Assembly: GCA_009886045.1 (NCBI GenBank)
Contig: VFJO01000211.1
Span: 1 to 33,980, forward strand
Length of the DNA: 33,980 nucleotides
Origin: Verrucomicrobiota bacterium
GTDB taxonomy: Bacteria > Verrucomicrobiota > Verrucomicrobiia > Chthoniobacterales > Terrimicrobiaceae
Direction of reading: 5' to 3'
In this document: positions 129-12,897 of the stretch, piece by piece
Position numbering within the stretch: the stretch's first letter is position 1
Layout of the letters: each line of letters opens with the position of its first letter
Translations under genes and position numbers: made by a program
The notes under the pieces: generated by a model
Database searches by the model: none
What the model was told of the DNA's origin: nothing
What the model saw: the letters and a program-made list of their open reading frames with translations, nothing else

Positions 129-168
129 AAAAAACTGTGTCTACGTTTCGGAGTGGTTACAGTTTTTT
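129..168 (-). terminator. Candidate terminator hairpin after the prenyl synthase
   Basis: A perfect 10-bp inverted repeat is formed by AAAAAACTGT (129-138) and ACAGTTTTTT (159-168), with 20 nt between the arms. Read on the minus strand it ends in a run of T and overlaps the stop codon of the prenyl synthase at 157-159. The stem is A/T rich and the loop is long, so it is a plausible but not strong intrinsic terminator for the long minus-strand operon. Confidence 0.45.
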
Positions 169-1158
169 GAGGAGACCTCGTAGGTGCTCAGGAATGGAAT
201 GGAGGCCTCGAGCGTAACGGTTGTCTTGTACACCTTGGAGTTGCTCAAGGGCTTCCGAAATAAAGCGATTTGCGATCGTTTTGGCATTCTCGATTGTTCC
301 TGCTTCCTGAAGAATCGCGGCGAGTGCCGTATGCGCTCCTGGGTCGTCGTTGAGCAACATATCGCGCAAGGCGCTCACGTCTTTTCCTGACTGGAGCATC
401 AGAAGGACCGGGAGAGTAAATTTTCCTTTTTGGAGATCGGTGCCCAGGGTTTTCCCCGTTTCCTCCTCACTGCCGGCGAGATCCAGAATATCATCATAAA
501 TCTGGTAGGCCACGCCCAGCTTGGTGCCAAAGGTTTTGAAAGATCCAATCACCGATGGACTGGCTTCACTGATGAAGGCGCCGAGTTCACAGGCTGCCGT
601 GAAGAGGGCGGCTGTCTTCATTTCAATGATGCGGTAGTAGTCCGCTGTGGTGAGTTTGAGGTCAAACCGCCGTTGAGTCTGGATAATTTCGCCGGAGCAC
701 ACCTCTGCGGCGGCATCTGCAATCCGGCGGCAGATGTCGCTATTGCTGAAGTTTGTGGAAAGTTTGAGCGCGTGGGCAAAGAGTACGTCCCCGAGGAGTA
801 CGCTAATGGCATTGCCCTATTTGGCGTTGGCCGAGGGTTGTTCGCGACGGAGTTCCGCTCCGTCGATGATGTCATCGTGAACGAGTGTGGCTATGTGGAT
901 GAGTTCTAAAATCACGGCAAGATCAACATGACCGGGCGTGATTTTTCCCGTGGCTCCGGCAGAGAGGAGGGCCAGGGCTGGGCGCAGGCGTTTTCCTCCC
1001 GCTCCACAGATGTAGGAAACGTAGCCTTCAACTGCCGGGTCGAAAGATTTGGCTTGGGCGCGGATGCGTTCCTCGACCGTGTAGAGGTGAGGGTTGATCA
1101 GTTCGAATGCCTCGGTGAAGGAGAGCGATTCGGAGTTGCTCGTTATGGATGTGGGCAT
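157..1158 (-). pseudogene. All-trans polyprenyl diphosphate synthase, interrupted by one in-frame TAG
   Basis: The frame encodes a class I trans-prenyltransferase that would elongate allylic diphosphates with IPP to make the side chain of quinones or other prenyl lipids. Visible are GGKRLRP near residue 55, the first Asp-rich motif DDIID near residue 94, and the second, DDILD, in YQIYDDILDL. With the stop read through, the product is 333 residues, normal for the family. Codon 114 is TAG (817-819, minus strand) between SANAK and GNAISVLLGD; E. coli IspB has Phe in the matching ANAAFGNA, so TAC or TAT (Tyr) is the likely ancestral codon. A product ending at TAG (113 aa) lacks the second Asp motif, and a restart at GTG 702 lacks the first. 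The gene starts 12 nt after the SDR and ends the operon. It is a recent nonsense mutation, a base-call error, or read through; the family call itself is firm. Confidence 0.85.
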
Positions 1159-1170
1159 CGGAGAAGTTTT

Positions 1171-1983
1171 CTAAAAAGATGCGGCTTTTGCAGCAAGGAT
1201 TCGGCGAATGATACAGAAGGGAATGACAAGCGCCACGGCAACCGCTGCCGCCAAGAGTGCTCCCGGAATAACACGCGCTCGCTCGTTTGCAACGGCTCGA
1301 AGACCATCGCGTACGGCCTCCGAAGCAGAAACCACAAAAGCCGGAAAAGTCTCGAAGTGTGAGGCGCGGGCTTCTTCGCCAGGTCTTGTGGCGATGTCGA
1401 AAAACTCGGTTGGAACTGGCCCCGGGCATAGGGCGCTGACCGTTATCCCTTTGGGGCGTAGCTCGATGCTTAAAGCTTCGGAGAGGCTTGTGACATAGGC
1501 TTTTGTCGCAGAGTACACGGCCATATTGGGAAGCGGAAAAAACCCAGCCACGCTGCTCACGTTCAAAATAGCTGCGCGACCGCTGAGAATCATTCGTCCT
1601 ACTAATAGATGTGTCAGGTGAGTGAGTGCGGTGATATTCAAATCCAGCATTGCCTGCACGCGGTTCCACTCGCTGGAATCGAAGTGCCCGTGGTCGCCCA
1701 AGCCAGCGTTGTTGATGAGAAAATTCACATCCATTTTTTCCTTCTCAAGCCAATCGGCCAAGGCATATCGCTGTCCGGAATCTGCCAGATCAGCTTGAAA
1801 AATGCGGATCTCGAGTTCCGGATGCAGCGAGCGCAACGTGGCGGAGAGTTCTTCAAGGCGGTCATTTCTGCGAGCCACAAGAACTAAGCCTGAGGCGAGC
1901 GGAGCGAGTTGGCGTGCAAACTCGGCCCCTAGCCCAGAGGAAGCTCCTGTAATAAGTGCCGTGCAGCCTTCAAAAAATTTCAT
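1171..1983 (-). CDS. Short-chain dehydrogenase/reductase with C-terminal hydrophobic segment
   Basis: This is a 270-residue NAD(P)-dependent SDR. The N-terminal Rossmann motif TGASSGLG (residues about 12-19) binds the nucleotide, NNAG follows near residue 90, and YSATK near residue 158 holds the catalytic Tyr and Lys, with a Ser about 15 residues before it (NVSSVAG). LCPGPV is the usual post-active-site loop. The last 25 residues contain a hydrophobic run (ALLAAAVAVALVIPF) followed by RR, so the enzyme may be membrane-anchored, as in lipid- or acyl-modifying members of the family. The substrate cannot be told from sequence. A 109-nt gap separates it from the transglutaminase upstream, longer than other gaps in this run, so it and the prenyl synthase could form a separate transcript. 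It ends in TAG, which shows that TAG is an ordinary stop codon here. Confidence 0.85.
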   Translation of the reverse strand: MKFFEGCTALITGASSGLGAEFARQLAPLASGLVLVARRNDRLEELSATLRSLHPELEIRIFQADLADSGQRYALADWLEKEKMDVNFLINNAGLGDHGHFDSSEWNRVQAMLDLNITALTHLTHLLVGRMILSGRAAILNVSSVAGFFPLPNMAVYSATKAYVTSLSEALSIELRPKGITVSALCPGPVPTEFFDIATRPGEEARASHFETFPAFVVSASEAVRDGLRAVANERARVIPGALLAAAVAVALVIPFCIIRRILAAKAASF

Positions 1984-2092: not shown

Positions 2093-2941
2093 TCACGCCG
2101 TTTGCTCTACAGAGACGCTTGTGACAAGTTCGCTGGCGACTGGAGTTTCGCTGTAGTAGGAACCACTGATTGGAGCGACGTCCTCGTGTCGGCGTCCGAC
2201 CGCGGTAGCCACGAAGTGGTGGTCGGTGAGAACACCATTTGTGGGATCCATGCCGATCCAGCCCGCACCAGGCAGGCAGGCTTCGACCCAGAGGTGCATT
2301 GCGCTGGAGGCCCGTTTTTCTTCCTCTGGCTTGTCGCCTTCCCAGACAAATCCGCTCACCAGACGCGCTGCAACGCCATTCTGGCGGAGGGTCTCAGTCA
2401 GGAGTGCAGCGAAATCGCGACAGGAACCAGCTCCTATTGATAGAACCTCTTGAGGAGTGTGTGGCAAACCAGTCGGCCGCACCTCGTACTCGATATTTTC
2501 GTGAATCCAGTGGTTGAAATTAAGGATTGTTTCGACCGTTGGGCGAGGCCCGTAAGGTGCCAGCGGGGAGGGCAGCTTGCATCCGCTCACCGGCATGAGA
2601 TACGGAGTGAGTATGCTGCGCTCGTCATCGCGATATTGCGGCGGGACTTGGAGGCCGTCTGGTTCGAGCAGGAAGTGGAACGGGTTTCTCTCCTCCACCT
2701 CGAGATCAAGCTCCAGTCGGAATGGGAGCACATTCGACATCTCCGGATAGAAACAATAGGCAATATGGTTATCGAATAGGTCCTGCCGGAATTGTACATC
2801 GGCAGCGGAATGTGTTTCAAACCGTATTCCCTCGACCTTCACCGAGAGGTCAATTCGAGGAAAAATGCGTGCGTGGTGTGGTGAAAATGACACCGGACCC
2901 TCATAGGTGTAGACCGATTCCTTTTTGATTTTTAGTTTCAT
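2093..2941 (-). CDS. Transglutaminase-like protein, second copy of the pair
   Basis: The product has 282 residues. The N-terminal half resembles the bacterial transglutaminase N-terminal beta region, and the C-terminal half is the papain-like transglutaminase core. The putative triad is Cys in GSCRDFA, His in MHLWVEA and Asp in MDPTNG, in the usual order and spacing. There is no signal peptide, so a cytosolic enzyme is expected. Bacterial members near alpha-E and ATP-grasp genes are thought to be peptidases or amide transferases rather than protein crosslinkers; that is family-level prediction, not shown here. The start overlaps the stop of the partner transglutaminase by 4 nt (2938-2941), so the two are probably translationally coupled. 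The paralogues share architecture but differ widely in sequence, so this is an old duplication or two separate subfamilies. Confidence 0.85.
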   Translation of the reverse strand: MKLKIKKESVYTYEGPVSFSPHHARIFPRIDLSVKVEGIRFETHSAADVQFRQDLFDNHIAYCFYPEMSNVLPFRLELDLEVEERNPFHFLLEPDGLQVPPQYRDDERSILTPYLMPVSGCKLPSPLAPYGPRPTVETILNFNHWIHENIEYEVRPTGLPHTPQEVLSIGAGSCRDFAALLTETLRQNGVAARLVSGFVWEGDKPEEEKRASSAMHLWVEACLPGAGWIGMDPTNGVLTDHHFVATAVGRRHEDVAPISGSYYSETPVASELVTSVSVEQTA

Positions 2942-3816
2942 ATTTTTTCAGGAACTCGCTTCATCTTCACATGCACTTTCAACTTTTGCGAGGCTGAACC
3001 TTTAAAAGTCCCTTTCACTGGGGTTGCGTCGATGAAGTCGCGACCCACAGCGACCGTAACGTGTTGTTCGCCACACCACTGATTGTTTGTGGGGTCAAGC
3101 GCGACCCACACCATGCCAGGAACAAGGACCTCGACCCAAGCATGGGTGGCTAGCGATCCAATCAAGCTCTTGCGAGTCGGGTCGAAAGGAATGGTTTCGG
3201 ATTCGATGTACCCGCAGACATAGCGGCAGGGAATGTGTGCCGCACGTAGGACACTCAACATCACATGGGCGAAATCTTGGCAGACCCCCTCGCGCGTTTT
3301 CCAGATTTCGGAAAGCGGTGTCTCATTCTCCGTTGAGCCGGACTGGTATTTAAATTCGCGCCAAATCGTCGTGTTGAGTTCGTCGAGACCATCCTGCAAT
3401 GGCCGGTTTTCACGGAGAATCTCCTTTGCCCATGCCGTGGAATCCGGCGTCAGGGGAATGGCTCCGGTGGGCTGCAGGTAATCAAATACACTCGTTCCGG
3501 TGGATTTTAAAATCTGACGCGCTTCGGCAATCGTGAGGGCAAGACCAAACTCCGGCCGGTTGCGGGGGAGTGTGCGTACGGTCAGTCGGTTCGTCACCTT
3601 GAGTTGTCGGTGGCGAAGCGTCATGGAATAAAACGTGGTTCGATTTCCAAAATAGTCGACGTAGTCGGATGCTCGTGCCGTGGGATGGAATTCGATCCGG
3701 TGACTGAGGACTTTTTGTTCTGCTCTTGCAGGTGGCGTGAGGCGGACTTCGAGGTAAGCCTCCATCGCCTCGTCTACGTACTGATACGTGGTGGTGTGCA
3801 CGACGTTAAAAAGCAT
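2938..3816 (-). CDS. Transglutaminase-like protein, first copy of the pair
   Basis: The product has 292 residues. It begins with MLFNVVHTTTYQY, the typical opening of the bacterial transglutaminase N-terminal domain (early beta strand plus Tyr), followed by the core domain. The Cys is in EGVCQDFAH, the His in THAWVEV and the Asp in ALDPTNN; a lysine-rich basic tail (VHVKMKRV) ends the protein. It starts 2 nt after the stop of the ATP-grasp/alpha-E gene and overlaps the next transglutaminase by 4 nt. The combination ATP-grasp, alpha-E and transglutaminase recurs in many bacteria, and Iyer, Aravind and colleagues proposed it as a peptide-forming and peptide-trimming module. The real substrate is unknown. 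Confidence 0.87.
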   Translation of the reverse strand: MLFNVVHTTTYQYVDEAMEAYLEVRLTPPARAEQKVLSHRIEFHPTARASDYVDYFGNRTTFYSMTLRHRQLKVTNRLTVRTLPRNRPEFGLALTIAEARQILKSTGTSVFDYLQPTGAIPLTPDSTAWAKEILRENRPLQDGLDELNTTIWREFKYQSGSTENETPLSEIWKTREGVCQDFAHVMLSVLRAAHIPCRYVCGYIESETIPFDPTRKSLIGSLATHAWVEVLVPGMVWVALDPTNNQWCGEQHVTVAVGRDFIDATPVKGTFKGSASQKLKVHVKMKRVPEKI

Positions 3817-3818
3817 GG

Positions 3819-6341
3819 TCAGTTTTTAAAAAGAGGCTTTGTTTCGCTGTGCATGAGCACTTGGCGGTTAAGAAAACTATCGCAGATCACGGTGTGGAGG
3901 CCGAGCAGGCTTTGGAGCAGCCTTTCCGAGTGGCTCTGGAGCGGAGATTTGGAGGAGCTGGTTTTTTTCTCGTCGAGCAATTCCTCCCAGTTCGTGGATT
4001 GGATTTCTTTGATCAGGTTTTCCAAAGTCGCCCAAGCCCTGTCAGTGGCGGGGGAGAGCACCTTTTCTCCTTTGCGAATGCGTGCGGCGCAGCCTTCGAG
4101 ACACTGCACCACGGAGCGCGGCGCAACGGGATTTTTCCAGAGGAGTTCAAGAAGAGGCAACGGCTCGATACGCATCTGGTAAATGCGGCGGTAGATATCC
4201 CGGCTATTCAGAAGGCGAAGGAATGCCGAGAGGCGGATTTCCACCGCGTGCGGGCGAAGACTCGCGCGAGATGACTGCAGGAGCGGGCCCGCGATGGAGG
4301 TCGCCGCATTTGCTGTAATAGCAGCTCGCTCCAAAAGTTGTCCAATTTCACAAAAGTTCCAACCGTCGTCTGCCAGCATCGTGCATTTGGCTGTACCAAA
4401 AAACCGAGGAATCATCTCCCTCGCAAATAAGCAAAACTCGCGGCTTGCGTTGGCAAGTGTCTCTGCGGGGGCATCGGGCTTGAAAAGCACTGCATCAAAG
4501 CGCTCGCGAAGCCCGCTCATTACGGCCCATGAGTCGAGGCTCAGGGTTTCTAAGACGGACTCGGCATTGTTGAATGCGCGATGAATGGTGCTTATGACCG
4601 AGCCTGGTTCCCCCGGATCAAAGGTGAGGCGGTAGCGGCCCTCTGGACTTGAAATGGTACGGCGCGAGGAAGAGGGAGAGCCTTCAAGCATCGGGAGGAT
4701 TCGGTTCCAAACGGGACGGTAATTCATCCTTTCCGTAGGATTGAGCTCTTCCAGCTCGAGGGATTCGATCACACTGACCATTCCTGCTAAATCGTAGGCG
4801 CGTTCCAAGTAACGACCGAGCCAGTAATAGGACTCTGCGACGCGACTGGTGACGCCGTGAAGGGGAATTTTCGAATCTATCTGCCGGGAGGGATCCCACT
4901 CGTCGGATGTTATATCCGCGTCGACTTGAACCCAAGTGTCCTTGCTCCCCCCGCCGAGTTCCGAGGAGGTGAAGGGAGACTCCTTGGTGGAGACGCGCGT
5001 GAGGGCACCCGGGAACACTTCCAGGTCGCCACTATTTTTTCGGAGGGCAAAGAGGATGTGGTCTTGTCGGCTTTTACGGCGCTGGCCGTCTTGAAAAGAA
5101 ATGGTCTCTGCATCACAGGCCTGAGGTTGGGCGACGTAACGCGCGGGATCGCTGAGAATCTCCTCTTGCACAGCACGGATTTCTTCGCCTGAGGGAAGTT
5201 TGCCGTCACCGCCGAGGTAGATGCGCTCACCATAGAGCCCTCGAATGGTAAATCGCTCGAGCTCGGATAAGACAAGCTCGCGTTGGTCGTGATCGCCAAG
5301 CCAGTAGGTTGGGACTGTCGGGAGGAGCGGCTGTTCTCCGAGGTAATAGCGGATGATTTGAGAGGAGAATGGCAGAAGGGCGCGGTCGTCGGAAAGTTGG
5401 GCTCCAATCGCATTGATGACCGCAACGCTTTTCTTTCGAATGCAGTGGACGAGTCCTGGAACACCGAGCATCGAGTCGCGATGGAAAACCATGGGATCCA
5501 GCCAGCGGTCGCTGACTCGGGAGTAAATGACATCCACCTTGCTCAGGCCAGAGACCGTTTTCAAATACACTTCATCATTGAGTACCAGTAAATCCCCCCC
5601 TTGCACCAACGGGATGCCCATCCGGCGGCCAAGAAAACTGTGTTCGGAATAGGCTGGGCTGAGTGGGCCGGGGGTCAGAAGTACAACCATGGGATCCGAC
5701 TCCCCCGAGTGAGTGCGCAGCATCTCCACAATGCTGGTCGGAACATCTGAAATCGAATGGATGCCTGTATCATGGAAGGATTGCGGAATCACCCTCGTCA
5801 GCGCCCGGCGATTCTGGATCATGTAAGACATGCCGGAAGCGTGGCTGAAATAGTGGTGCTTTACGGCAAGTGTTCCATTCGGCAGTCGGCAAATGGCAAG
5901 CCCACTCAGATGCAGAAATGCATCGCCTGGCTGCGGCAGACCAGCGGCGGAGCGCTGGAAAAACTCGCTGCCGAGGACCAAGGGAATCGGCAACACACCG
6001 TCTAATAGGATTTGCTTTGGGCCATAGATGTCCTTCAGAAAATACTCAAAGGCACGGAGGCGCTGCCGGACTCCGGCTTCCAATGGAGCCCACTCTGCGG
6101 GAGTAAAAATCTGCGGCAGGAGGTCGCAGAACCACGAGCGGGATCCCCAGGGACGGTCGCGGTGGATGTCGAACGTCACGCCCATCTCTCGCATGGTGGC
6201 TTCGAGACGCTCGTCGAGGCTGCGCAATTGGGCGCGCGGCATTTTTTGAAGCCGCTCGAAGAGTGCCGTGTAAACTTGGCGCGGTCGGCCGTCGGGGTCC
6301 GACATTTCGTCATAGGTGCCGAAATGCCAGGGCGAATTCAT
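3819..6341 (-). CDS. Circularly permuted ATP-grasp protein fused to an alpha-E domain
   Basis: The product has 840 residues in two parts. Residues about 60-400 match the circularly permuted ATP-grasp family (DUF404/DUF407 type): LTPGPLSPAYSEH, QGGDLL, VDVIYSRVSDRWLDP, the NAIGAQLSDDRAL nucleotide-site region and RYYLGEQPLLPTVPTYW. Residues about 495-815 are an alpha-helical alpha-E domain (DUF403 type), opening with SRVAESYYWLGRYLERA. In many genomes these are two adjacent genes; here they are one polypeptide with a charged linker. ATP-grasp enzymes join a carboxylate to an amine through an acyl-phosphate, so an ATP-dependent peptide or amide ligase is inferred. The start overlaps the stop of ribF by 4 nt, and the two transglutaminases follow immediately. 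No signal peptide is seen. Family assignment is strong; substrate and product are unknown. Confidence 0.88.
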   Translation of the reverse strand: MNSPWHFGTYDEMSDPDGRPRQVYTALFERLQKMPRAQLRSLDERLEATMREMGVTFDIHRDRPWGSRSWFCDLLPQIFTPAEWAPLEAGVRQRLRAFEYFLKDIYGPKQILLDGVLPIPLVLGSEFFQRSAAGLPQPGDAFLHLSGLAICRLPNGTLAVKHHYFSHASGMSYMIQNRRALTRVIPQSFHDTGIHSISDVPTSIVEMLRTHSGESDPMVVLLTPGPLSPAYSEHSFLGRRMGIPLVQGGDLLVLNDEVYLKTVSGLSKVDVIYSRVSDRWLDPMVFHRDSMLGVPGLVHCIRKKSVAVINAIGAQLSDDRALLPFSSQIIRYYLGEQPLLPTVPTYWLGDHDQRELVLSELERFTIRGLYGERIYLGGDGKLPSGEEIRAVQEEILSDPARYVAQPQACDAETISFQDGQRRKSRQDHILFALRKNSGDLEVFPGALTRVSTKESPFTSSELGGGSKDTWVQVDADITSDEWDPSRQIDSKIPLHGVTSRVAESYYWLGRYLERAYDLAGMVSVIESLELEELNPTERMNYRPVWNRILPMLEGSPSSSRRTISSPEGRYRLTFDPGEPGSVISTIHRAFNNAESVLETLSLDSWAVMSGLRERFDAVLFKPDAPAETLANASREFCLFAREMIPRFFGTAKCTMLADDGWNFCEIGQLLERAAITANAATSIAGPLLQSSRASLRPHAVEIRLSAFLRLLNSRDIYRRIYQMRIEPLPLLELLWKNPVAPRSVVQCLEGCAARIRKGEKVLSPATDRAWATLENLIKEIQSTNWEELLDEKKTSSSKSPLQSHSERLLQSLLGLHTVICDSFLNRQVLMHSETKPLFKN

Positions 6342-7279
6342 GCGGCAATACGGGCTTTTTTAAACCATGCCTCTGCTGAGGAGACGTCGTTGCGAATCTG
6401 TGAAGTGAGGGCGTCTCTCGTTTCGAATTTTATCTCTGCTCTCAGAAAATGAAGAAAGGAAACCTCGATGACAGCGTCGTAAAGATCCCCCGAGAAGTCG
6501 AAAAGGTGGACTTCGAGAACCCGATCCCCATTTGTCGCCACTGTCGGGCGCAGGCCTATGTTTGCAACACCTTGAAACGTCTTTTCGTTTACCAAGGCTC
6601 GGATGGCATAAACACCATCCGCTGGGTATTGCTGGAAGTCGGTGGATATGTTCGCAGTTGGGAATCCCAATTTTCTACCCAAGCCGGCACCGCGCACGAC
6701 CAGCCCGCGAATGGCAAAATCTCTGCCCAGGAGGCGGGCCGCTTTGGCAAGGTCGCAGGCGGCGAGGGCTTGTCGGATGAGCGTGCTGCTGACCACTTCA
6801 CCGTCTCTTTGGACTTGCGCCGTGGCGCTCGTAAAAAAGCCATTTTGCATTCCAAGCGTCCTTAGGATCCGTGCATCTCCTCTGCGACCATGGCCAAACA
6901 TCCAGCCTTCTCCAACACAGACGCCGGCAAGCTGCGGTGTGCTGCGGCAGAGTGATAAAATAAAATCCTCGGCCTCGATTGCGGCAAAAGCGGCATCGAA
7001 TCCAATGATCAGTGCATGCTCGATGCCGAGGCGTTTAATGAGTTGGAGTTTGAAATCAAGCGGTGTCAGGAGGCGAGGGGCTCGATCGCGTCGCAGAACA
7101 GTAGCAGGGTGGGGGTCGAATGTGAGCGCGACCGGAACGCCTTCGATGCGGGCTGCCGAGTCAATGGCGGCTTGCAATACAGCTTGATGGCCTAGATGCA
7201 CGCCATCAAAGACGCCTGCTGCCAGAACAACCGGAGCATCGATTTCCTCAAGGGCGTCGATGGAGCGGAGAATTTTCAT
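6338..7279 (-). CDS. ribF: Bifunctional riboflavin kinase/FAD synthetase
   Basis: RibF phosphorylates riboflavin to FMN and adenylylates FMN to FAD in the cytosol. The 313-residue length is standard. The N-terminal FAD synthetase half shows the nucleotidyltransferase motif GVFDGVHLGHQ near residue 23; the C-terminal flavokinase half shows GRKLGFPTANI near residue 200. The start codon shares one base with the end of truB and the end overlaps the ATP-grasp gene by 4 nt. The truB-ribF order is common in bacteria. What is unusual is that the peptide-ligase genes follow directly in the same transcript. Confidence 0.95.
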   Translation of the reverse strand: MKILRSIDALEEIDAPVVLAAGVFDGVHLGHQAVLQAAIDSAARIEGVPVALTFDPHPATVLRRDRAPRLLTPLDFKLQLIKRLGIEHALIIGFDAAFAAIEAEDFILSLCRSTPQLAGVCVGEGWMFGHGRRGDARILRTLGMQNGFFTSATAQVQRDGEVVSSTLIRQALAACDLAKAARLLGRDFAIRGLVVRGAGLGRKLGFPTANISTDFQQYPADGVYAIRALVNEKTFQGVANIGLRPTVATNGDRVLEVHLFDFSGDLYDAVIEVSFLHFLRAEIKFETRDALTSQIRNDVSSAEAWFKKARIAA

Positions 7280-8001
7280 CAGGCCCCACGAAGTCGCGAA
7301 ACGACAGGCAGACTCAGGACGCGCTGCGCAATGGCATCCGTCGGTCCGGCCTTGAGTTCGTCAATGGTTACAGCTCCCTCGACGCTGAATCGGCCCGATT
7401 TGGTGCGGCGTAGGGACTTGAGATGGGCTCCACAGCCTAGCTCGCCTCCGACATCGTGGGCATAAGTTCGGACATAAAATCCCTTGCTACAGACGACGCG
7501 GAAATCAATCTCGGGAAGTCTTACTGCCTGAATCTCGTGTGCGTAAACGTGGACGAAGCGGGGCTCTCGCTCCACAGTTTTACCCTGTCGGGCAAGCTTG
7601 TAGAGTGGCACGCCGTCCTTCTTGATGGCGCTAACCATCGGCGGAGTCTGATAAAAGTCGCCATGGAATTTGGCAAAGGCCGCATCCAATTTTTCTCGAG
7701 CCAGATCGGGAACAGGCAGTGTTTCTATCACTTGGCCGTCCGAGTCTTGGCTGTCGGTGACTTCACCTAGGCGGAGTGTGCCGACATATTCTTTATCCTC
7801 GCTCATGAGGAGATCTTGGATTTTTGTTCCTCGGCCGATGGTGATGATGAGTAGCCCGGTCGCGAGCGGGTCGAGCGTGCCGCAGTGGCCCACTTTCTTG
7901 GTATTCAGGGCCCGGCGGGTTATCGCCACGACATCGTGGGATGTCATCCCGGTGGATTTATCGACAAGAAGTACGCCGTCAATTTCAGTTCCGGATTTCA
8001 T
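7279..8001 (-). CDS. truB: tRNA pseudouridine(55) synthase
   Basis: TruB isomerises uridine 55 in the T-loop of tRNAs to pseudouridine. The motif GHCGTLDPLATGLL near residue 37 contains the catalytic Asp, and the N-terminal DGVLLVDKSTGMTSHDVV is diagnostic. At 240 residues it is short against the roughly 310 residues of E. coli TruB, because the C-terminal PUA-type extension is largely missing; short forms are common outside proteobacteria. The start overlaps the end of the DHH gene by 17 nt, so translation of the two is likely coupled. Confidence 0.95.
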   Translation of the reverse strand: MKSGTEIDGVLLVDKSTGMTSHDVVAITRRALNTKKVGHCGTLDPLATGLLIITIGRGTKIQDLLMSEDKEYVGTLRLGEVTDSQDSDGQVIETLPVPDLAREKLDAAFAKFHGDFYQTPPMVSAIKKDGVPLYKLARQGKTVEREPRFVHVYAHEIQAVRLPEIDFRVVCSKGFYVRTYAHDVGGELGCGAHLKSLRRTKSGRFSVEGAVTIDELKAGPTDAIAQRVLSLPVVSRLRGA

Positions 8002-8959
8002 CAGAGAGAGCCTTTAAAAAATCGCATTTGACTTGGCTGAGGCTACCATCAACGCGAGCACCTGCGGCCATGGGATGTCCTCCGCCATGGAATTCTTTAC
8101 AAACTTTGCAGACATCGATTCGAGGGAACTTCGAGCGTGCGCTCACCCGCACTTTGCCTTCGGGAAGTTCCTCAAAAAACACAGCCGCTTCCACGCCTTC
8201 GACGGAGCGGAGGTGGTCAATGATACCTTCATTGTCTTCGGGCAGGACATTGAGCTTTTCAACCAATTCGAGTGAGAGAGAGAACGTGGCAATGCGGCCG
8301 TCGTAATGAAACTCCGCAGAATTGAGCGCGTGCCGGAGAAGTTCAAAGCGACGGCGCGGCTGGCTGTCGTACATGGCGCGGGAGAGGGAGGAAACATCCA
8401 CGCCGCAGCCGATGAGATGGCCCGCGGCTGAAAATGTTCGCTCATTCGTCCCCGCGTATTGAAACGAGCCGGTATCCGTCGAAATCGCCGCAAACAGGTT
8501 CGTGGCTATTTCAGGCGAGATGCGGGCACCAACATGTTGAAAGAATTCAAAAAGAATCTGTCCGGTGGCAGGAGCTGATGGGTCGATGTAATTCACATCG
8601 CCGAAGTTCTCGTTGCTGATGTGGTGGTCAATGTTGAGAATCGGCGTGCCCGGAGCGATCGCTTCGTGGACGGAGCCGAGCCGGTTTTTCACCGAGGTGT
8701 CGAGGGCGACAAAGACATCGAACTTCTGAGGAGCGGAGGGCGGCATGACAACGATTTCATGGCACGGAAGGTAGTGAAATTTTGAAGTTGATCCCTCTTC
8801 ATTGTAGGCAGTGACCTCCTTGCCGCACTCGCGAAGCCAGAGAGCAAAGGCAATCGTCGAGCCGAGCGCATCAGCGTCAGGCCGGATATGGCTGGCGACT
8901 CCCACTGTGTGGGCGTTGCGCAGCACTCCAGCAATCGTATCAAAGTTCGGTTTCATCAT
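7985..8959 (-). CDS. DHH/DHHA1 phosphoesterase, NrnA-like oligoribonuclease/pAp phosphatase
   Basis: The protein belongs to the RecJ-like DHH family of bacterial NrnA enzymes, which degrade very short RNA and dephosphorylate 3'-phosphoadenosine 5'-phosphate. Visible motifs are SHIRPDADALGS (metal site), VALDTS, the DHH in NIDHHIS, and the DHHA1 GGGHPMAAGARV near the C terminus. I chose the start MMKPNFDTIAGV at 8959, giving 324 residues; a longer frame back to 9115 would add 52 residues with no family similarity that lie entirely inside rbfA. The chosen start still overlaps rbfA by 20 nt. A gene of this family between rbfA and truB is a frequent arrangement. NrnA is the most likely subfamily; related DHH enzymes acting on cyclic dinucleotides are less likely because no extra domains are present. 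Confidence 0.88.
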   Translation of the reverse strand: MMKPNFDTIAGVLRNAHTVGVASHIRPDADALGSTIAFALWLRECGKEVTAYNEEGSTSKFHYLPCHEIVVMPPSAPQKFDVFVALDTSVKNRLGSVHEAIAPGTPILNIDHHISNENFGDVNYIDPSAPATGQILFEFFQHVGARISPEIATNLFAAISTDTGSFQYAGTNERTFSAAGHLIGCGVDVSSLSRAMYDSQPRRRFELLRHALNSAEFHYDGRIATFSLSLELVEKLNVLPEDNEGIIDHLRSVEGVEAAVFFEELPEGKVRVSARSKFPRIDVCKVCKEFHGGGHPMAAGARVDGSLSQVKCDFLKALSDEIRN

Positions 8960-9320
8960 TTGACTTTTCTTCAGTGAGGCCAAGTTCGTCCATGAGGGTG
9001 ATGATTCGCGATCCCCGCTCGATGGCCTCGTCGAGACGAAAGTGCAGATGCGGAGTGTGTTTGATGTGCACTCGGCGGGAAAGCTCTGTTTGAAACATGA
9101 CCCTGTGCTGCTCAAGGGACTCCATGGCCTTCCGACGGCCGGCGGGCAAACCTAGCGCGGATATAAAGACATGGGCCTGCTTCAGATCGGGCGTGATATC
9201 AACCCCACTTACGGTCACCAGCGTATTTTCAAACTCAAGCTCTCGGCGGATAATCATCCCCAGCTCGCGTTTCAGTACTTCACACACCCTCGCAAGTCGA
9301 TTATTCATAGCATGAAACAT
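8940..9320 (-). CDS. rbfA: 30S ribosome-binding factor A
   Basis: RbfA is a small KH-like protein that assists late 16S rRNA and 30S maturation. The 126 residues include the typical N-terminal RLARVCEVLKRELGMII and the central VSGVDITPDLKQAHVFIS, followed by an acidic tail. Start may be at 9320 (MFHAMNNR) or at the internal Met at 9308; the second gives the more typical N terminus. It lies 136 nt after infB with no gene between, and overlaps the DHH gene by 20 nt. Confidence 0.92.
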   Translation of the reverse strand: MFHAMNNRLARVCEVLKRELGMIIRRELEFENTLVTVSGVDITPDLKQAHVFISALGLPAGRRKAMESLEQHRVMFQTELSRRVHIKHTPHLHFRLDEAIERGSRIITLMDELGLTEEKSNDETEL

Positions 9321-9456: not shown

Positions 9457-11601
9457 CTAAAGCTGCTGCGCGATTTTTTCGAGCGTGTAGCATTCGATGA
9501 TATCCTCGGGCAGGTATTCTGTAAAATCACCCAATTTGATGCCGCACTCGAGTCCCGAACGCACTTCTTTAACTTCGTCTGCGAAGCGGCGCAGCGTCGC
9601 GATGCCCCCGTCGTAGATTGGTTGGCGTCGGCGAAGCACGCGGGCGCGGGCTGTGCGGGCGATACGTCCGTCGGTAACCATACAGCCGGCGACTTTGCCT
9701 TTGGTGAGATCAAAAACCTGTTTTACCTCGGCGTGGCCTATGATGGCCTCGCGGTGTTCCGGATCGAGCATTCCGCTCATGGATTCGCGAATCTGATCCA
9801 GCAATTCGTAGATGATGCTGTAGAGCTTGATCTGAACACCTTCGCGCTTGGCTGCTTGCGCAGCGCTGTTTTCCGTCTTGGTACCAAAGCCGATGACGAC
9901 CGCATTTGAGGCGCTGGCCAGCATCACATCGGACTCGGTGATCGGTCCCACAGCACTGTGTATGATGTCGAGAGTGATTTTTTTCTGTGGAATCTCACGG
10001 AGTGAGGCAACCACGGCTTCGAGCGAGCCTTGGACGTCGCACTTGACGATTGCTCTCAACGAGGGCTTCGATTCGGAGGCGATGCTGGCGAAAAGGTTTT
10101 CCAGCGTGGTCCGCTGCGGTGTGGAGAGTTTCGTATCACGATGAGAGGCCAAACGCTCCTCACTCAGCAGGCGGGCGGATTTTTCGCAGTCCATCACCAC
10201 GAGTTCGTCGCCTGCATTCGGGAGGCCGCTCAAACCAAGAATCCTTACCGGCATCGAGGGTCCTGCTTCTTTTATAGGTTTGCCGAGGTCGTTGATGAGC
10301 TGCTTCACCTTGCCCCACTGGTTGCCACAGATAAAGACATCACCTGCTTTTAAGGTGCCCATGCGGACGATCACGGTAGCCGTTGGTCCGCGTCCCTGCT
10401 CGACCTGAGCTTCAATAACCGTGCATCGCGCATCGAGTGTCGAACTTGCTGTCAACTCCAGCATCTCGGATTCTAAAATCATGGAATCGAGGAGATTGCT
10501 TATGCCTGTGCCCTTTGTGGCGCTTACGGGGATGCAGATCGTCTCACCTCCCCAATCCTCTGGGGTGAGGCCTTTTTCTTGCAACTGGGTTCGCACGCGG
10601 TCGGGATTGGCCGAAGGCATGTCGATTTTATTGATGGCGACAATGATTTTTACCTTGGCGGCTTTCGCGTGGGAAATGGCCTCCAACGTCTGTGGCATGA
10701 GGCCATCGTCTGCGGCGACAACAAGCACAACGATATCGGTCACGTTCGCTCCGCGGGCTCGCATGGATGTGAAAGCAGCGTGGCCGGGGGTGTCGAGAAA
10801 TGTGATTCTTTGGCCGTTGCGCTCTACGCTGTACGCACCGATGTGCTGAGTGATACCACCAGCTTCGCCGGCTGCAACGCGGGCTTTCCGAATCGCATCG
10901 AGTAGCGAGGTTTTGCCGTGGTCCACATGCCCCATGAAGGTGATAATCGGAGCGCGAAGTGTCAGTTGCTCTGTCTTGGCCGGCTCGGGGGCCTTGGGAA
11001 CTTCGACTTTTACTTCAACCTTGTGATGCCCTTTTGATGTGTCTTTACGCTCACGCTCAAAAACAAAGCCGTGCATCTCGCAAACCTTTGCGACCACATC
11101 CGCTTCGACCGTCTGGTTGAGATTTGCGAAAATCTGAAGCGACATGAGGTCTTTGATAAGCTGGAATGGCTTGAGACCTAGTTCATCAGCAAGAACTTTG
11201 ACGACAATCGGGGGTTTGATGTTAAGGACTTTTTTTCCGGAGTCTGCGGAGGCAGGAGGCTCCGAGTCGCTATTTGCGGAAACGTCCTCTTGGGAAAGTT
11301 CAGGAACCAGCTCCGGAACTGGCTGCGGAGGTGGAGGCGTGTGAGAAGACGGCTTGGCCGTCAAGGGCTTGATAAAAGGCTTGAGTCCTGGACGCTCAGA
11401 GGTGGCCTTTTTTATTTTTTTAACCGGCTCGAGCAGATCGACGGTTGGTCCCTGAACTTTTGGTTCAGGGGGTGGTGTGGCAGATGAAGCGGGGGGTTCA
11501 GCGGCGGAAGGTGAGGTGCGCGCGGTGCGCGAGGAACTTATTGGACGGCGTTTCGTGGCCGTCTTGTCCTCGGTGATTTTTTTCGTTGTTTTCTCTGCCA
11601 T
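9457..11601 (-). CDS. infB: Translation initiation factor IF-2
   Basis: IF-2 is the GTPase that places initiator tRNA on the 30S subunit. The 714-residue product has a lysine-, serine- and proline-rich N-terminal region of about 130 residues, an IF2 N-terminal module ([20 protein letters not shown]), and a full G domain with GHVDHGKTS (P-loop), [14 protein letters not shown] and NKID. Domains II, III and the C-terminal initiator-tRNA-binding region follow, ending in ECGIKLGDF and the terminal [11 protein letters not shown]. It starts 36 nt after nusA, the classic bacterial order. It ends in TAG. Confidence 0.97.
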
Positions 11602-11637: not shown

Positions 11638-12897
11638 TCAGGCGGCGGGAGTTTTTTGGGTAGCCTGGGCCGCTGCGAGTATTCGCTGACCGGTTTCGAT
11701 ATCTGAACCGAGCGCATCAGCGATGTCTTCCGCTCCAGCTAATTGAATGACCTCGATTGAGTTCATACCACCTGCTGTGAGTTTGAGGGCCTCCTCTTCG
11801 GTGATTCCAAGAATCTCTTCAAGAGAGTGTGCGGCCTCATCGGTCTTGTGCTTGAGAGCTTTTTCTTCGCGTTTGTCTTCCTGAATATCAACTTCCCAGC
11901 CGCACATTTTTGCGGTGAGGCGGGCGTTTTGGCCTTTGCGCCCGATTGCCACGGAGAGGTCCTCCTTTGGAACTAAAACTTGGATAGATTTTTTTGCCTC
12001 ATCAGCCGTGATGGATTTGATATTCGCTGGCTTGAGTGCCGCGCTCACAAATTTCAACGGATCGGCGTCCCAGCGGATGATATCCACTTTTTCGTTATTG
12101 AGTTCACGGACGATGTTTTTGACGCGTGCACCGCGCATCCCAACGCAGGCGCCTACTGGGTCCACTTTTGGATCAGCGCTGTGAACGGCGACCTTCGTGC
12201 GGAAGCCAGCCTCGCGAGCGAGAACCTTCAGCTCCACCGTGCGGTCGGCAATCTCGCTGACTTCCAACTCAAAAAGTCGGCGAACAAAATTTGGGTGGCT
12301 GCGGGATAAGATGATTTCTGGTCCGCGATTGCCACTTTCCACGGCGACAACATAGGCGCGCAACCGATCTCCCACATTGTATTCCTCTGTGAGCACTCGC
12401 TCGCGGGATGGCATCACGCCCTCGAACTTCCCGAGATCGATAATGACGTCGGAGCGTTCGAAACGGCGGACAGTGCCAGTGACGATCTCGCCAGCGCGAT
12501 CCTTGAACTCATCATAAATCATTTCGCGCTCGATCTGGCGTAGGCGCTGGTTGATGGCTTGTCGTGCTGCTTGGGCTGCAATCCGGCCGAAATCGCGTGG
12601 AGTGACCTCGATTTCGATTTCCTCCCCGGGCTGGGCGTCCTCCTTGATGGAGCGGGCCTTCGAGAGCAGAATCTCATCGTGCGGGCTGGTTATTTTTTCA
12701 GCAACGATAAGCGTCGCAATCGCGCGAATCGCACCGCTTTGAGGGTTGATCTCGATGCGCAGTTCGCGTGTTCCCGAGGTGAAGCTTTTCTTCGAAGCCG
12801 CCAAGATGGATGTGGAAATAGCATCCACGAGGACATCTCGTTTGATGCCCTTCTCACGCTCCAGCAGGTCCAGCATTGTAATGAGTTCGGAATTCAT
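11638..12897 (-). CDS. nusA: Transcription termination/antitermination factor NusA
   Basis: NusA binds RNA polymerase and nascent RNA to control pausing, termination and antitermination. The 419 residues contain the N-terminal polymerase-binding domain, an S1 domain (GEIVTGTVRRFERSDVIIDLG, residues about 134-200), KH1 (VGACVGMRGARVKNIV) and KH2 (VAIGRKGQNARLTAK), and a short helix-hairpin-helix tail (LAGAEDIADALG). It lacks the second E. coli-type acidic C-terminal repeat. It heads the minus-strand run. A GGGAG sequence lies about 10 nt before the ATG. rimP, which precedes nusA in many bacteria, is not here; the next gene upstream is divergent. Confidence 0.96.
   Translation of the reverse strand: MNSELITMLDLLEREKGIKRDVLVDAISTSILAASKKSFTSGTRELRIEINPQSGAIRAIATLIVAEKITSPHDEILLSKARSIKEDAQPGEEIEIEVTPRDFGRIAAQAARQAINQRLRQIEREMIYDEFKDRAGEIVTGTVRRFERSDVIIDLGKFEGVMPSRERVLTEEYNVGDRLRAYVVAVESGNRGPEIILSRSHPNFVRRLFELEVSEIADRTVELKVLAREAGFRTKVAVHSADPKVDPVGACVGMRGARVKNIVRELNNEKVDIIRWDADPLKFVSAALKPANIKSITADEAKKSIQVLVPKEDLSVAIGRKGQNARLTAKMCGWEVDIQEDKREEKALKHKTDEAAHSLEEILGITEEEALKLTAGGMNSIEVIQLAGAEDIADALGSDIETGQRILAAAQATQKTPAA

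Follow-up and report, generated by a model that had tools for sequence, protein, structure and literature searches.

Why should an ATP-grasp/Alpha-E fusion and two transglutaminase-like proteins be encoded directly behind a set of core translation genes? The initial annotation of this stretch of DNA (the window: 33,980 nucleotides, contig C282 of a 3.5 Mb genome that is 98.6% complete) read the arrangement as a peptide-ligase-like module, expressed with the ribosome-assembly operon and for that reason constitutive and growth-linked. The host belongs to the Chthoniobacterales (Verrucomicrobiota), and its nearest relatives with a name are metagenome assemblies of Spartobacteria/Terrimicrobiaceae. 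The arrangement is true and conserved within the genus, but the inference drawn from it runs ahead of the evidence.

Gene order and expression of the cassette

The genes concerned are the following:

11638..12897 (-), nusA, with which the housekeeping operon begins (TIGR01953, E 2e-117)
9457..11601 (-), infB, encoding IF-2 (TIGR00487, E 2e-219)
8940..9320 (-), rbfA, an ORF of 126 aa between infB and nrnA; position and similarity are conserved in the loci of the genus
7985..9115 (-), nrnA-like DHH/DHHA1 protein (Pfam DHH, DHHA1); the ORF as listed has a TTG start, the true start being probably near 8955
7279..8001 (-), truB (TIGR00431, E 7e-70)
6338..7279 (-), ribF (TIGR00083, E 8e-82); its stop overlaps the start of the fusion (ATGA)
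3819..6341 (-), CP_ATPgrasp–Alpha-E fusion of 840 aa, with CP_ATPgrasp_2 (PF14403) at residues 76-451 (E 1e-109) and PF04168 at residues 498-823 (E 1e-47)
3873..4850 (-), Alpha-E domain of the fusion, ER motifs retained
2938..3816 (-), TG2, transglutaminase-like (Bact_transglu_N and Transglut_core, Pfam)
2093..2941 (-), TG1, transglutaminase-like (Bact_transglu_N and Transglut_core, Pfam)
1171..1983 (-), short-chain dehydrogenase, 109 nt downstream of the cassette

Pfam and NCBIfam confirm the identities of nusA, infB, nrnA, truB and ribF in the row nusA-infB-rbfA-nrnA-truB-ribF, behind which the cassette stands, and in the fusion PF14403 is followed by PF04168 in one chain (Pfam), as defines its family. 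The ORF coordinates and the junctions described earlier are exact (RibF/fusion -4 nt, ATGA; fusion/TG2 +2 nt; TG2/TG1 -4 nt), and TruB/RibF overlap by one nucleotide (-1 nt). Both transglutaminase-like proteins possess the Cys-His-Asp triad of Transglut_core: C179 (3280-3282), H225 (3142-3144) and D241 (3094-3096) in TG2, and C174 (2420-2422), H216 (2294-2296) and D232 (2246-2248) in TG1. These residues are at least 95% conserved (n=44 sequences for TG2, n=43 for TG1), and the two proteins are the only ones in the genome with a transglutaminase core above the cut-off. It is doubtful that the short-chain dehydrogenase belongs to the system. Further downstream, the frame of a polyprenyl synthetase (window 157-1158, minus strand) is interrupted near 817-819 by an in-frame TAG, with a match to PF00348 on either side of it; either a nonsense change or an assembly error is at hand.

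In this genus the cassette is probably transcribed together with nusA-infB. A promoter scan of the minus strand showed no promoter-like site from 6341 to the end of infB. The missing promoter is weak evidence, because the whole scan returns 5 promoters against 5.6 expected from shuffled sequence. Likewise, a Shine-Dalgarno motif is seen at only 2 of the 17 gene starts checked in the window; starts are mostly without one, and the test therefore says nothing on translational coupling.

Spread of the ribF linkage

Across 97 genomes of the order we compared where the fusion and ribF lie, and we read the loci with their flanks. In the window's genus each of the 8 genomes sampled has the fusion immediately behind ribF, with an overlap of exactly -4 nt (ATGA) in 15/15 distinct contigs measured (L077 and L060 being the same genome). 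As RibF itself is only about 51-58% identical in most comparisons within the genus, the conserved overlap is more than chance. Outside the genus the picture changes: ribF and the fusion lie on separate contigs in 6/6 fusion-bearing genomes of the family's other genera (G128, G144, G153, G159, G184, G200), most cleanly in G153 (three contigs). Beyond the family, but within the order, both genes are found together only in G115, with an M24 peptidase gene in between, where it should be kept in mind that draft assemblies may hide a few linked cases (e.g. G121, with both genes near contig ends). The junction is thus a constant of one genus. Co-transcription with the nusA-infB-ribF operon stays plausible; with the cassette elsewhere outside the genus (G115 excepted), the link to translation genes is a lineage-specific relocation that does not define the module.

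The locus in G115 (L085), which belongs to a different family, holds a complete cassette including DUF2126 behind nusA-infB-rbfA-nrnA-truB-ribF and the M24 peptidase gene (Xaa-Pro type, judged by eye). It is a second placement behind ribF, either independent or ancestral.

In the tree of the fusion the window's genus forms one clade within its family, with the exception of one long branch (L093). The tree follows descent, by which the gene appears to have been inherited vertically and moved. In L093 (G135), a member of the genus, the fusion still stands at the ribF junction, on a branch of 1.62 and with 46% identity; TruB, InfB and NusA all exceed 80% while the fusion diverges, a sign of accelerated evolution.

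Two explanations of the linkage have to be weighed here. The fusion itself might be an active, constitutive peptide ligase with a growth-linked function tied to ribosome assembly, for which one may cite the exact -4 overlap throughout the genus, the complete cassette behind ribF and the M24 peptidase gene in a second lineage (G115), and the lack of a promoter-like site just before 6341. We consider this unlikely: the linkage is missing in the rest of the family and in nearly all of the order, the putative ATP-site residues are lost (see below), and homologous operons elsewhere are affected by nitrogen supply. A Burkholderia cenocepacia cluster with the same domains depends on NtrC/sigma54 (PMC5491218), and in Pseudomonas putida PP_2685 and PP_2688 differ between growth on nitrate and ammonium (PMC8050072). 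That the module as such has a growth-linked role is therefore not supported, even though the genes of Anbu operons show moderate constitutive expression in some bacteria (PMC5666114).

Alternatively, the relocation could be selectively neutral and the ATGA overlap merely inherited, the function being a nitrogen-related metabolism of peptides or amides, which has been suggested for Proteobacteria. The fusion tree fits this explanation, since it agrees with descent and, but for a single long branch, unites the genus in one clade; so do the nitrogen regulation of homologues and, from marine metagenomes, an association with domains of urea metabolism (PMC3597751). Against it stand the maintenance of the exact overlap over a large divergence and the scarcity of sigma54/NtrC-like sites, none of which stands out upstream of the unlinked cassettes (2/18) or the stand-alone ATP-grasp/Alpha-E pairs (1/9). 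On balance we regard it as possible, yet rather doubtful.

The ATP-grasp half of the fusion

To what extent the fusion deserves the name of a ligase can be judged from its residues. We compared 44 order-wide fusion sequences with 21 stand-alone CP-ATP-grasps of the phylum (fusion residues are numbered from the true start). The positions that differ are:

5850..5858 (-), H162-H163-Y164, replacing E173-D174-N175 of canonical CP-ATP-grasps (EDN in 21/21)
5241..5243 (-), R367, replacing an invariant Lys (K380 of the canonical paralogue)
5214..5225 (-), residues 373-376, site of the lost GGxG loop (canonical G386-G387-x-G389)
5055..5063 (-), D427-H428-I429, replacing D-L-R (R442 to I429); D and H are present in 44/44 order-wide orthologues

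In addition, A149 takes the place of D160, which is invariant in 21/21 canonical relatives. Of the residues invariant in canonical CP-ATP-grasps, EDN, K, GGxG and the R of DxR are hence all replaced in the fusion, while K467/D468 of GGGSKD are still present. The substitutes are themselves conserved (K161, H162, Y164, R367, D427, H428 and I429 are invariant among 14 fusion orthologues), which suggests that the fusion is under selection. The stand-alone proteins of Verrucomicrobiota, Burkholderiales, Rhizobiales and Bacteroidota keep VLEDN, K...GGYGM and DLRP, and those of Caballeronia, Sinorhizobium and Hymenobacter retain the full canonical set. Part of the set is missing in the fusions of other classes and in those of Azospirillum and Sinorhizobium, the Asn and the Gly loop being gone in nearly all those printed; among the fusions inspected, the loss is most complete in this order.

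Given that residues invariant in 21/21 stand-alone relatives are replaced, the ATP-grasp half in the window is probably a remodelled pseudo-ligase and not a ligase, and the earlier label 'peptide-ligase-like' finds no support for it. The weak point of this assignment is that a role of the lost residues in the ATP site is suggested by their conservation and by a likeness: they presumably correspond to D318, E330, N332 and K533 of E. coli Gss, and their counterparts in ATP-grasp enzymes would be the elements E-x-N, Lys and D-x-R. HHalign gave no significant alignment between canonical CP-ATP-grasps and E. coli Gss, glutathionylspermidine synthetase relatives in the phylum sample were too few for a profile, and the AlphaFold model of the fusion is poor (pLDDT 52). 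It also counts against the assignment that a pseudo-enzyme may have some different activity and that K467/D468 are kept. In the literature searched (Iyer et al. 2009, the main paper on the family, lies outside it) the fused degenerate form is not reported.

The canonical pair and comparison with known systems

If the fusion is no ligase, a canonical enzyme may be sought elsewhere in the genome. A stand-alone CP-ATP-grasp and Alpha-E pair is indeed found on another contig (C166:6663-9085 of genome G000), beside a squalene/phytoene-synthase-type gene. The same pair occurs in 47/50 fusion-bearing genomes of the order (the 3 exceptions are less than 90% complete) against 24/47 genomes of the order that lack the fusion (Fisher p 1.7e-6, kinship ignored). 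Part of this co-occurrence reflects shared descent, the genomes being related. The pair is also present in 19/19 fusion-bearing genomes of the wider phylum sample (table read by eye), and several distant relatives have everything in a single gene run: ATP-grasp–Alpha-E–TG–fusion–TG2–TG1–DUF2126 at L147, and similar runs at L145 and L146. A squalene/phytoene-synthase-type gene also directly follows the stand-alone Alpha-E gene at L112 (9082-9963), and comparable genes are found close to the pair in L142 and L143.

The cassette in the window is shortened as well. In other genera its usual form is fusion–TG2–TG1–DUF2126, where DUF2126, a 'putative amidoligase' in Pfam, often has a 4-nt overlap with TG1. 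No DUF2126 was found in the window's genome, where the short-chain dehydrogenase occupies its place as it does in the genus, and 7/8 genomes of the genus lack it, G190 having one on another contig. It was not found either in most genomes of genus g77, which belongs to another family, so loss probably occurred more than once. The module is thus not complete in the window: its canonical pair lies on another contig and its DUF2126 partner is lost. The loci L037, L057, L064 and L068, which belong to one subclade of the genus, have lost TG2 too, leaving a gap of about 62-69 nt between the fusion and TG1.

Taking architecture and residues together, we think it fairly probable that the window holds one half of a two-locus, Anbu-less amidoligase–transglutaminase system, with a pseudo-ligase and its canonical partner; systems of this kind have been predicted for Anbu operons. 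The stand-alone CP-ATP-grasp on C166 would be the likely ATP-using ligase, together with its Alpha-E partner, and the fusion most likely a non-ligase platform or a regulatory or substrate-binding subunit. In the window's genus, fusion–TG2–TG1 would have moved behind ribF and lost the DUF2126 amidoligase neighbour. The specific chemistry is put forward tentatively: the C166 ligase may activate a carboxylate as acyl phosphate and join the acyl phosphate to an amine, after which TG2 and TG1 would most likely provide a cysteine-enzyme step that trims or transfers the peptide or amide product. That the fused site was rebuilt under purifying selection into a conserved K-H-H-Y, R, D-H signature, making the fusion an obligate partner of the canonical ATP-grasp (a ligase/pseudo-ligase pair) that in one genus was wired into the translation operon, is a reading that we entertain with slightly more doubt than belief.

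Amidoligase–transglutaminase systems are widespread, and no substrate is named for them in PMC5666114 and PMC6376114, in agreement with what had been stated for this module. If one of their two ATP-grasps proves to be a pseudo-enzyme reliant on its canonical counterpart, and if the core persists without Anbu, without DUF2126 or, in some species, without TG2, the choice of what to assay narrows: the ligase candidate would be the stand-alone ATP-grasp with Alpha-E, the fusion a possible activator, and the transglutaminases would act on the product. The idea that the link to translation reveals the function is corrected; this link is local to one genus and one other genome.

Among the nearest known systems is the Anbu operon, which comprises a CP-ATP-grasp, Alpha-E, a transglutaminase and Anbu (Iyer et al. 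2009 and Valas & Bourne 2008, as far as they are rendered in PMC5666114 and PMC6376114); the functions proposed for it are peptide synthesis or tagging (PMC5666114; PMC6376114). For a CP-ATP-grasp of Yersinia bercovieri, release of phosphate from ATP is described but no substrate, and pull-downs with the proteins of the operon gave no specific complexes (PMC6376114). On the basis of these proposals one could think of protein tagging or degradation in which Anbu or a 20S proteasome is the partner. We hold this to be very improbable and reject such a partner, the proteasome-family profile PF00227 (Anbu, HslV, 20S) having no match in the window's genome or in the 14 other genomes of the family searched. 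Neighbouring pairs of proteasome-family genes, as expected of alpha and beta subunits of the 20S type, do occur in many Chthoniobacterales (L113-L124 and others), but not in the window's family. An anti-phage defence system was rejected too, as PADLOC gave no match for the six system proteins.

Like the Anbu operon, the window's genome has these three protein families, genetically close in the fusion–TG2–TG1 cassette, and a stand-alone ATP-grasp and Alpha-E pair. Unlike it, the genome yielded neither Anbu nor any other protein of the proteasome fold, the system is spread over two loci (canonical ATP-grasp and Alpha-E on C166, transglutaminases in the window; one gene run in relatives), a second, fused and degenerate ATP-grasp–Alpha-E is present, and the cassette is attached to the nusA-infB-ribF operon. 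The B. cenocepacia cluster I35_5080-5083 shares DUF404/DUF407, DUF403, a transglutaminase and a large transglutaminase-like protein in one cluster (likened by the domain names of the paper), whereas it is NtrC/sigma54 controlled (PMC5491218) and the window's cassette stands behind a housekeeping operon without a DUF2126-type protein. PDB 3n6x, a putative glutathionylspermidine synthase, is a CP-ATP-grasp homologous to fusion residues 10-472 (E 3e-86); it has no Alpha-E half and, in the printed alignment, keeps the canonical-type VLEDN and KEVQGSGGYGM that the window's protein does not. From the DUF2126-containing amidoligase operon the window differs in having no such gene after its transglutaminases or anywhere in the genome. 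On the best reading, this is the known amidoligase–transglutaminase system in a variant that lacks Anbu and is split over two loci.
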